64,000 nt of DNA from the NCBI GenBank assembly GCA_903889565.1, contig CAISYC010000029.1, positions 1 through 64,000 of the forward strand. The letters are read 5' to 3'. The notes beneath the pieces are model-generated. The model saw only the letters and a program-made list of their open reading frames with translations. It made no database searches and was not told where the DNA came from. The position numbers and the translations under genes are program-made. Source of the DNA: an uncultured beta proteobacterium. Lineage in GTDB: Bacteria; Pseudomonadota; Gammaproteobacteria; Burkholderiales; SG8-41. This document shows, in pieces, positions 58,028 through 60,509 of this stretch; position 1 is the first letter of the stretch; every line of letters begins with the position of its first letter.

Positions 58028-59542
58028 TCAGGCCGCTTTTTTCTTCTTCGCCTGCGCGGCCTTCGCATGCAGCGCGGCATAGGCGCCGTGAGCCGCAGCC
58101 TCGGCATCGCCGACGTGAATCGGCAGACCCATGTCGGAGAGCACCGAACCCAGCGCCGACAAACAGAGCATGACGTTCTCGGGTTTGCACGAGTAGCCCA
58201 TCAGGCCGATGCGCCAGATTTTGCCGGCAAGCGGGCCCAAACCGGCGCCGATTTCGAGGTTGAATTCGTTGAGCAAGGTCTTGCGCACTTCGGCTTCGCG
58301 CGACTGCACCTGTTCCGGGATCAGGATCGCGTTCATTTGCGGCAGACCCGCACCTTCCTTGACCAGGAACTTCAGGCCCATCGCTTCGAGGCCGGCCTTG
58401 AGCGCCAGATGGTTGCGCATGTGGCGCGCCCACGCATTCTCGATGCCCTCTTCCTTCAGGATCACCAGCGCTTCGTGCAACGCGTAGAGGCTGTTGGTTG
58501 GCGCGGTGTGGTGATAAGTACGGGTGGTTTCACCCCAATAACCGAGCAACAGGTTCATATCCATGAACCAGCTGTGGATCTTGTCCTTGCGCGCCTTCAC
58601 GGTCTCGATCACGCGGTCGGAAATGGTCACCGGCGACAGACCCGGCGTGCACGACAGACATTTCTGGCTGGCCGAATACACCGCGTCGGCCTTCCACTCA
58701 TCAACCAGCACCGGAGTGCCGGCCAGCGAGGTGACCGCATCCATGATGGTCAGCGCGTCGTGCTTGTGCGCGATCTCGATCAGCGTTTTTGCATCCGACT
58801 GCACGCCGGTGGAAGTCTCGGCGTGCACGAAGGACACGAGCCGCACATCCGGGTTTTTCTTCAGCGCGTCTTCCAGTTTCTGCGCGTCGATCGGCTCGCC
58901 CCAGGCATCTTCGACCACGATCGCCTCGCCGCCGGCACGCTGCACGTTTTCGATCATGCGGCCGCCGAACACACCGTTGCGGCAGACGATGACCTTGTCG
59001 CCGGGGGCAACCATGTTGACGAAACAGAACTCCATGCCGACCGAGCCCGGCCCGGAGATCGGGAAGGTCAGCGGATTCTTCGTTTGGTAGGTGTAGCGCA
59101 GCAGGCTTTTGAGTTCTTCCATCATGCCGACGAAGATCGGATCGAGATAACCGATCGCCGGCAGGCTCATCGCCGCCATCACGCGCGGCGTGATTTCCGA
59201 CGGGCCGGGTCCCAGCAGGGTGCGTTGCGGCGGGTGAAACGAGTTGACGCGTTTTGCAGGCGCGAAATCATTCATGGTGTCATTCCCTTCAGTTGGCGAT
59301 CCGAACAAACTGCCGCCGTCCGGGCGCGACTTCATGCGCAGGGGCTTGCGGACGGTGGCTTCGTTGAGCACTTCGACTGCGGTGATTTCCCCGCGCGAGG
59401 CCTGCTCCACTTCCATGGCCCAGCGCGCGGGCACGTAACCCGATTTGACCCAGTTGTTGACGACGGCGCGATCAAGGCGAAATTGTCGCGCAACCTCGGC
59501 TTGCGAACCGAACAGGGCGACGAGACGATCGACACAGTTCAT
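58028..59542 (-). CDS. Aminotransferase of the alanine/serine--glyoxylate family fused to an N-terminal HTH domain
   Basis: One uninterrupted 504-codon frame. Residues 1-62 look like a Cro/YdaS-type DNA-binding domain (LVALFGSQAEVARQFRLDRA, then VVNNWVKSGYVPARWAMEVE). About 27 linker residues follow, then from residue 90 a class V PLP aminotransferase: TLLGPGPSEITPRVMAAM, the lysine K294 in SASQKCLSCTPGLSP, and a C-terminal domain with WRIGLMGYSCKPENVMLCL. An internal ATG at 59275 (residue 90, MNDFAPAKR) with GAAGGGA could yield the enzyme alone. The family moves amino groups between glyoxylate and alanine or serine. A perfect palindrome lies 16 bases upstream of the first start. Confidence 0.85.
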   Translation of the reverse strand: MNCVDRLVALFGSQAEVARQFRLDRAVVNNWVKSGYVPARWAMEVEQASRGEITAVEVLNEATVRKPLRMKSRPDGGSLFGSPTEGNDTMNDFAPAKRVNSFHPPQRTLLGPGPSEITPRVMAAMSLPAIGYLDPIFVGMMEELKSLLRYTYQTKNPLTFPISGPGSVGMEFCFVNMVAPGDKVIVCRNGVFGGRMIENVQRAGGEAIVVEDAWGEPIDAQKLEDALKKNPDVRLVSFVHAETSTGVQSDAKTLIEIAHKHDALTIMDAVTSLAGTPVLVDEWKADAVYSASQKCLSCTPGLSPVTISDRVIETVKARKDKIHSWFMDMNLLLGYWGETTRTYHHTAPTNSLYALHEALVILKEEGIENAWARHMRNHLALKAGLEAMGLKFLVKEGAGLPQMNAILIPEQVQSREAEVRKTLLNEFNLEIGAGLGPLAGKIWRIGLMGYSCKPENVMLCLSALGSVLSDMGLPIHVGDAEAAAHGAYAALHAKAAQAKKKKAA

Positions 59543-59558
59543 GGCGGGAATTCTGCCA

Positions 59559-59577
59559 TGTCAAAACTATTTTGACA
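59559..59577. promoter_or_regulatory. Perfect palindrome upstream of the HTH-aminotransferase gene
   Basis: TGTCAAAA-CTA-TTTTGACA, a 19-bp dyad with 8-bp arms, 16 bases before the start codon of the fused gene. Size and symmetry fit an operator for a Cro-like dimer, and the gene's own N-terminal domain is a candidate ligand. The arm contains TTGACA on both strands. Confidence 0.65.
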
Positions 59578-59621
59578 ACTTATGGTTGCCAAATTATTCT
59601 TATATCAGCGTATGTTAGCGC

Positions 59622-60509
59622 CTACTCCGAATCGGAAAAGACGGTGAATTGTTCATCCCGATCAAAGGCTTTGTCACCTTCAACCGGAATTGCGCCCGTC
59701 GCCATGACGGCGGCAAAGTCGAATTTTTCCCGATCCAGCAGGTGTGAAAGGCGCACGTCGGCCAACGCACGGAAGGTGCTTTCGACGCGTCCCGGAAACT
59801 TCTTCTCCCAATCGCGCAACATGCCTTTGATCTGCTTCCTTTGCAGCGTCGGCTGCGAACCGCAGAGATCGCAGGGAATGATCGGAAATTTTTTGACCCC
59901 GGCGTAGGCGATCAGGTCTTCTTCCTTGACGTAGGCAAGCGGCCGGATGACGACGTGCGCGCCGTCATCCGACACCAGCTTGGGCGGCATCGCCTTCAGC
60001 TTGCCGCCGAAAAACAGATTAAGGAAAAACGTTTCGAGGATATCGTCGCGATGATGACCGAGCGCGATCTTGGTCGCGCCGATTTCGCGCGCAACGCGAT
60101 AAAGCACGCCGCGGCGCAACCGCGAGCACAACGAACACATGGTCTTGCCCTCGGCAATCACGCGCTTGACCACCGAATAGGTGTCCTGCACCTCGATCCG
60201 GTAGGGAATGCCAAGCCCGTCGAGATAAGCCGGCAATACATGTTCCGGATAACCGGGATGACGCTGATCGAGATTGACCGCGAACAACTCGAAGTCAACC
60301 GGCGCCTTCTCGCGCAGCCGCATCAGCACGTCGAGCATGGCGTAACTGTCCTTGCCGCCCGACAGGCAGACCATCACGCGGTCGCCGGCCTTGATCATCG
60401 AATAATCGGCGATTGCCGCGCCTGTCAGCCGGCGCAGTCGCTTGGCCAGCTTGTTCGATTCGTAAATCTGCTTCTGGCTGAGATTCAGTTCGCTCTCGGG
60501 CGCGTTCAT
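59622..60509 (-). CDS. ttcA: tRNA 2-thiocytidine biosynthesis protein TtcA
   Basis: Iron-sulfur enzyme that thiolates C32 of certain tRNAs; 295 residues. The PP-loop is SGGKDS (50-55), and the two CxxC pairs that hold the cluster are C125-S-L-C128 and C213-D-L-C216. [19 protein letters not shown] is another TtcA signature. It overlaps the pteridine-reductase gene by four bases. Confidence 0.96.

Follow-up and report, generated by a model that had tools for sequence, protein, structure and literature searches.

To our knowledge, the enzymes that repress their own genes form a small set of examples. The regulators MocR, GabR and PdxR are described, in the passages of the reports available to us, as carrying at the N-terminus a DNA-binding domain of about 60 residues that is connected to a PLP-enzyme fold, and the MocR regulators are described there as binding PLP via the aminotransferase-like domain (PMC4944035, PMC6917764, PMC5320631). 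In the corresponding passages on PutA (PMC9132996) and BirA (PMC6391492), catalysis and gene regulation by DNA binding reside in one polypeptide. As far as those passages go, the gene described here resembles MocR, GabR and PdxR in combining an N-terminal DNA-binding domain with a PLP-enzyme fold, and it resembles PutA and BirA in carrying an enzyme and a DNA-binding domain on one chain, the DNA role here being one predicted from sequence. A search of the open full-text literature, with subscription journals mostly outside its reach, found no YdaS/Cro-type helix–turn–helix (HTH) fused to a class V aminotransferase.

In the 64,000-nucleotide stretch of DNA that was analysed (the window), the gene is encoded on the minus strand, where a single open frame of 504 codons runs from an ATG at 59542 to a stop ending at 58028 (58028..59542) and, by ORF and Pfam analysis, encodes a full-length protein of 504 aa, a YdaS/Cro-like HTH fused to a class V aminotransferase. 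A first-pass annotation of the window had given coordinates and a stop-free frame, both of which are correct, and had left the minus strand unsaid. PF15943 (YdaS_toxin) matches residues 5–59 (59366..59530, minus strand) at 36.3 bits against a cut-off of 30 (E 4.9e-9) with the whole protein as query and at 40.6 bits with the first 89 residues alone, which confirms by profile the HTH that had been placed at residues 1–62; a match to P22 Cro falls below its cut-off, and no GntR family is found among the Pfam matches of the fusion protein up to E 1. In 8 phage records, regulators or other small proteins share 35–39% identity with the HTH, which also matches PHROG repressor and transcription-regulation families, suggesting that the HTH is likely of phage origin. 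A search with the HTH matched only the window's own genome among 274 genomes of the class and gave no match against plasmid records. Compared with the YdaS/Cro phage regulators, which belong to the same HTH family, the HTH here is chromosomal, is fused to a metabolic enzyme and has a basic linker added.

This conserved basic linker (residues 61–75, KPxRxKSRPDG-like; 59318..59362, minus strand) is followed by a variable linker (residues 76–89; 59276..59317, minus strand), which has no in-frame stop, differs in length among relatives at constant frame and also carries the internal ribosome site discussed below. Over 1164 non-independent pairs of aligned sequences, dN/dS is 0.098 for the HTH, 0.158 and 0.354 for the two linkers, respectively, and 0.089 for the enzyme. 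The KPxRxKSRPDG linker is conserved like a functional element and might conceivably serve as a basic arm directed at the AT-rich middle of the promoter site.

The enzyme part, which corresponds to a predicted enzyme-only product of 415 aa (58028..59275, minus strand), belongs by Pfam and structure–sequence alignment to the alanine:glyoxylate aminotransferase family. PF00266 (class V aminotransferase) scores 72.7 bits against a cut-off of 21.5, and with both Pfam domains above cut-off, the HTH, linker and class V aminotransferase that the annotation had seen in one frame are borne out. The closest solved structure is 1vjo, an alanine--glyoxylate aminotransferase (E 1.5e-101, residues 100–468), other near solved relatives being PucG (3isl) and mammalian AGT. 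All three align along the enzyme part, including the SQK lysine motif and a C-terminal RxGLxGY-like stretch; among the 35 solved sequences listed, the best match never extends into the first 94 residues of the fusion. The SQK lysine, K294 (58661..58663, minus strand), which we take to be the Schiff-base residue, aligns with SQK of 1vjo and is invariant in 30 of 30 sequences that were picked for spread and then aligned, suggesting that the enzyme part is probably active. The D-x-V-T-S-L motif, whose Asp is presumably the PLP aspartate, likewise aligns with 1vjo, and both motifs are conserved in relatives. The top NCBIfam match, BhcA (L-aspartate--glyoxylate aminotransferase, NF045640), reaches 209.9 bits, far under the equivalog cut-off of 650, and membership in this family was rejected. 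The window's genome also holds a RuBisCO large-subunit gene (L169, G000:C51:47562-48485; 453 bits), and RuBisCO oxygenation would be a plausible source of glyoxylate for the enzyme.

The fusion departs from MocR, GabR and PdxR in three respects. First, those regulators consist of a GntR-type winged HTH and a fold type I aminotransferase-like domain, whereas the HTH here is YdaS/Cro-like, with no GntR match. Second, the aminotransferase-like domain of MocR and GabR is of class I/II, whereas the enzyme here is of class V, from the alanine:glyoxylate family, and seemingly catalytically complete; on these two grounds, membership in the MocR group was rejected. Third, the fusion has a conserved internal start for a predicted enzyme-only product. 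PutA and BirA are built from other domains, and the fusion further differs from them in its predicted single self-target and two starts, so that the kinship to PutA proposed by the annotation holds as a likeness of function and not beyond it. Here, one compact gene unites an HTH of phage type with one dedicated site and an internal start that is conserved, and the candidate shows conservation in six or more families of a single bacterial order, in environmental betaproteobacteria. It bears on the origin of new transcription factors by domain capture, with fused and unfused orthologues open to comparison, and, through the cofactor-binding enzyme part, ligand control can be put directly to the test.

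From features at the sequence level, namely the fusion, its frame, the promoter site, the near-uniqueness of that site and the internal ribosome site, we infer DNA binding, repression, two products, subunit mixing and a possible ligand effect. The reading we favour, with a probability of about 0.77, is that a phage-type repressor was captured and became fused to the enzyme, with the gene yielding a long form that represses it and a short form consisting of the enzyme alone, in negative feedback. Aminotransferases of this family form dimers. In the proposed mechanism, the HTHs of two long subunits, paired by the enzyme dimer, would occupy the two half-sites of the palindrome, and this HTH pair, sitting on the −35 element and the spacer, would block RNA polymerase, whereby the full-length protein would repress its own gene. 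A weak first start against a strong internal ribosome site would produce the short enzyme-only form in excess; long and short subunits would mix, with good binding only by dimers of two long subunits, and the short form would dilute the long subunits, resulting in homeostasis of the amount of enzyme. Control of binding by a ligand (PLP, glyoxylate or the amino donor) could be a further addition. Repression is read from the position of the site, and activation would be the alternative role. A more specific version is tentative and falls somewhat short of an even chance: the two overlapping proteins and their mixed dimers would act as a counter, in which the double-long fraction, set by the start strengths and possibly by PLP or substrate, would determine transcription, and a phage Cro-type repressor together with its operator would have landed before the enzyme.

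Compatible with the autorepressing two-product reading is the idea of a ligand-gated, MocR-like trigger enzyme, in which the PLP/PMP or substrate state would move the HTHs and switch binding; we regard this as possible, with the odds clearly against it. The idea draws on the joining of an HTH to an apparently complete PLP enzyme and on the binding of PLP by MocR regulators via their aminotransferase-like domain, as described in the passages cited above. However, no coupling is visible in the sequence, the variable linker, with its dN/dS of 0.354, suggests a loose tether, and a plain amount sensor fits the data without a ligand.

The two products of the favoured reading are predicted from an internal start at residue 90 (ATG at 59273..59275, minus strand), the context of which in the window is GAAGGGAATGACACC-ATG, with a Shine–Dalgarno sequence AAGGGA at 59284..59289 (minus strand). 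The annotation had pointed to an internal ATG with a ribosome site, and both are present. All 85 relatives that could be aligned (the 88 unique fused loci less L015, L017 and L082, which run off their contigs) have Met at residue 90, with a GGGAGTGAC-type ribosome site ahead of it. The predicted anti-Shine–Dalgarno energy of the internal start averages −6.7 kcal/mol, against −3.54 under synonymous recoding with pooled codon usage, −2.53 at other Met codons and −1.44 at the first start; energies of −6 or lower are found at 63 of 85 internal starts, at 55 of 1354 other Met codons and at 2 of 85 first starts. At the fourth codon ahead of the internal ATG (n = 85), GGG occurs 54 times and GGA 10 times, although GGG accounts for only 12.6% of all Gly codons in these genes. 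A Shine–Dalgarno sequence conserved beyond amino acid need and beyond the synonymous expectation lends strong support to the earlier idea of two products. In unfused orthologues, the enzyme starts at the residue-90 place or within a few codons of it, suggesting that the internal start is probably the enzyme's old start, retained by selection.

It is unlikely that the full-length protein of an autorepressing fusion is the sole product, the internal ATG and ribosome-like sequence being relics or a result of amino acid constraint. Aligned relatives commonly have a Gly-Ser-Asp-like run ahead of the Met, and the internal ribosome site, individually significant (p ≤ 0.05) in 63 of 85 loci, is not so in the other 22, both of which would suit a single product. 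However, the mean energy lies far past the synonymous null, and the ribosome site survives amino acid change, as in L096 and L108, with Arg AGG codons, and in L093, L098, L100 and L106, with a shifted GGAG. The long form may often be translated from a leaderless message, since the predicted transcript start lies 0–1 nt from the first ATG in 34 and 0–4 nt in 44 of 86 loci, the leader being 9–65 nt in the other 42. In one locus (L045, position 3001), the first start of the fusion is ATA, with no damage to the promoter site, the internal ATG or the ribosome site.

The presumed operator is the palindromic site TGTCAAAA-CTA-TTTTGACA at 59559..59577 (no strand assigned), recognized by its sequence, its conservation and its rarity in the genome; the sequence ahead of the start in the window reads TTGTCAAAATAGTTTTGACATGGCAGAAT. 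The annotation had described a perfect palindrome upstream of the gene and proposed that its conservation be checked. In the window, the outer 8+8 bases are indeed perfectly paired, whereas the relatives, with the consensus TTGTCAAAnTnAnTTTGnCATGnTAnnnT, keep the site mostly as an imperfect palindrome. A near-palindrome TTGTCAAA-N5-TTTGNCA, with its right half between −35 and −10, is found in the promoter of 88 of 88 unique fused loci. Among 86 sites, all nine palindrome pairs match in 3, eight in 35, seven in 39, six in 8 and five in 1, and the third pair matches in just 30. In 86 of the 88 loci, a site matching 10 or more of the 13 core positions lies within 120 bp, with 13/13 in the window; in the remaining two, the site lies farther up (L096, 12/13 at 154 bp; L015, 13/13 at 236 bp). 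In a control of 1760 single-base shuffles of the upstream regions from these 88 loci, a score of at least 10 arose in 53, the best score of 12 arose once, and 13 arose in none.

A promoter scan, together with column conservation, places a −35 hexamer TTGTCA at 59573..59578 (minus strand), overlapping the left half-site, and promoter prediction places a −10 hexamer CAGAAT at 59550..59555 (minus strand), with TG before it and a 17-bp spacer; the predicted transcript start falls within about 1 nt of the first ATG. In the relatives, TTGTCA fits a −35 element and TAnnnT a −10 element, again with a 17-bp spacer and TG ahead of the −10, and the right half-site therefore sits in the spacer. Sigma-70 requires no such sequence in the spacer between −35 and −10, which is a classic position for a repressor. 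The right half TTTGNCA is conserved although it is no promoter element, with the third T kept in 81, the G (outside the scored core) in 83, the C in 84 and the A in 82 of 86 sites. Reading the dyad as an RNA element was rejected, as no known element in Rfam matches within 59200–59700 and transcription is, moreover, predicted to start downstream of the dyad. On the plus strand, a promoter-like pair TTGACA/TATTCT (10/12) at 59572–59600 overlaps the palindrome.

In the window's genome (5.04 Mb), a relaxed pattern allowing up to 2 mismatches finds this site and two other places, each with 2 mismatches, one of them (L113) inside a 726-codon open frame and the other at L114. The exact pattern yields 30 distinct sites in 60 genomes, both strands of one place being counted once; 24 lie just upstream of the fusion gene and 6 elsewhere, these 6 comparing with 3 matches for a reversed control pattern. 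The six off-gene sites (two in G039 and one each in G051, G025, G011 and G022) all fall within open frames of 184–339 codons and thus look like coding sequence rather than promoters. The first 89 residues of the fusion match in 35 of the 60 genomes of this set of relatives, the window's own included; G042, whose match is weak (35%, in a frame of 74 codons), was rejected as a fusion, leaving 34 fused genomes, and the exact pattern is missing from 10 of these because their sites deviate. The near single-copy occurrence of the site in each genome suggests that, provided the fusion protein binds this site, its own gene is probably its one main target, and a wider regulon was rejected on the same ground.

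Of 200 sampled genomes of the order, 87 contain the enzyme at E 1e-80 or better. The 51 loci inspected (50 from these 87 genomes, 30 of them returned and 20 chosen from the list, and L145; L146–L148, in which the enzymes of G003 and G014 are broken or cut, were removed beforehand) comprise 26 fused and 25 unfused, and unfused orthologues are common in this order. Within up to 700 bp of upstream DNA, the best site score is 11–13 of 13 for all 25 fused loci that have such DNA and 7–10 for all 25 inspected unfused ones; L145, the remaining fused locus, is cut by a contig end and scores 8. It is improbable, even more so than a single product, that another transcription factor acts on the palindrome while the fused HTH has a different DNA role or none. 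The independent events are few: HTH and site change together in 2 independent tree pairs, too few for significance, so that shared descent could account for much of the perfect HTH–site correlation. A covariation analysis of HTH residues against the site gave no convincing pair, the strongest pairs falling outside the expected recognition helix, and binding by the HTH is itself a prediction, all of which leaves room for another factor. However, none of the 25 unfused orthologues inspected has the site, which hardly occurs anywhere else in the genomes, and a decayed locus of the same genus, in G003, lacks both HTH and site. In G003, no HTH match is seen, the enzyme is in two pieces in different frames (L148, G003:C6:42170-45742; L146), and the 700 bp upstream contain a ttcA-like end and no site (best 9/13); this joint loss lends weak support, because the enzyme is broken too.

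The 88 unique fused loci derive from a set of 80 + 30 = 110, from which L103, whose contig starts inside the HTH, and then 21 duplicates among the remaining 109 were removed, the window being included in the 88. The 80 are the best of 295 relatives of the full protein in named genomes, nearly all metagenome-assembled by title, and were ranked by fusion match, which biases them towards the fusion. All 88 share the domain order that the annotation had proposed to seek in other betaproteobacteria. Between residue 60 and the enzyme start, none of the 88 loci, the window's own included, contains a stop, against 61 and 63 of 88 in frames +1 and +2, respectively. The number of residues ahead of the internal Met takes seven values, 85–91, and the frame is nonetheless kept. 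An open frame in all loci despite this change in length, together with the low dN/dS, makes it very probable that the joined frame is translated and maintained by selection. An assembly or sequencing artefact fusing two genes, such as the loss of a stop codon that the annotation had raised, can be dismissed, as the same in-frame join with an open linker recurs in 88 unique loci from many assemblies and in all 26 fused loci retrieved by searching with only the enzyme part. An HTH as a separate gene was not seen either, with no HTH match (E 0.001) in any frame up to 700 bp upstream of the 25 inspected unfused orthologues, and a stand-alone upstream HTH gene serving the unfused enzymes was rejected. 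The annotation's reading of a self-repressing trigger enzyme is supported, none of the contrary observations it named having turned up where they were sought.

The fused loci span six families (f1, f6, f11, f13, f30 and f40 in the tool's numbering). In a tree of 68 enzyme domains (43 fused and 25 unfused), the fused rows fall together, except that the unfused L142 and L152 of family f23 lie inside them. The best tree with its starred branches needs two changes of state. A single fused clade is not rejected by the AU test (p 0.178), so that one gain, with or without one loss in f23, is possible.

Upstream of the fusion, on the same strand, lies a gene that we take to be ttcA-like (59622..60509, minus strand, from the ORF list), which is not part of the proposed switch. 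Such a gene is upstream on the same strand in 49 of the 80 named loci, and genes presumed, from sequence features, to be metF-like and ahcY-like lie downstream on the opposite strand in 26 and 22, respectively, the flanks covering about 3 kb on either side or, in many cases, less. Among the 25 unfused loci, whose flanks are shorter, 9 have ttcA upstream. This neighbourhood speaks for orthology and gives no pointer to function. The locus also occurs in records titled Chitinophaga pinensis, Bordetella parapertussis and Nitrosovibrio (L032, L033, L054, L100 and others); L032 has the window's neighbouring genes too, and such titles look like those of mislabelled environmental bins.
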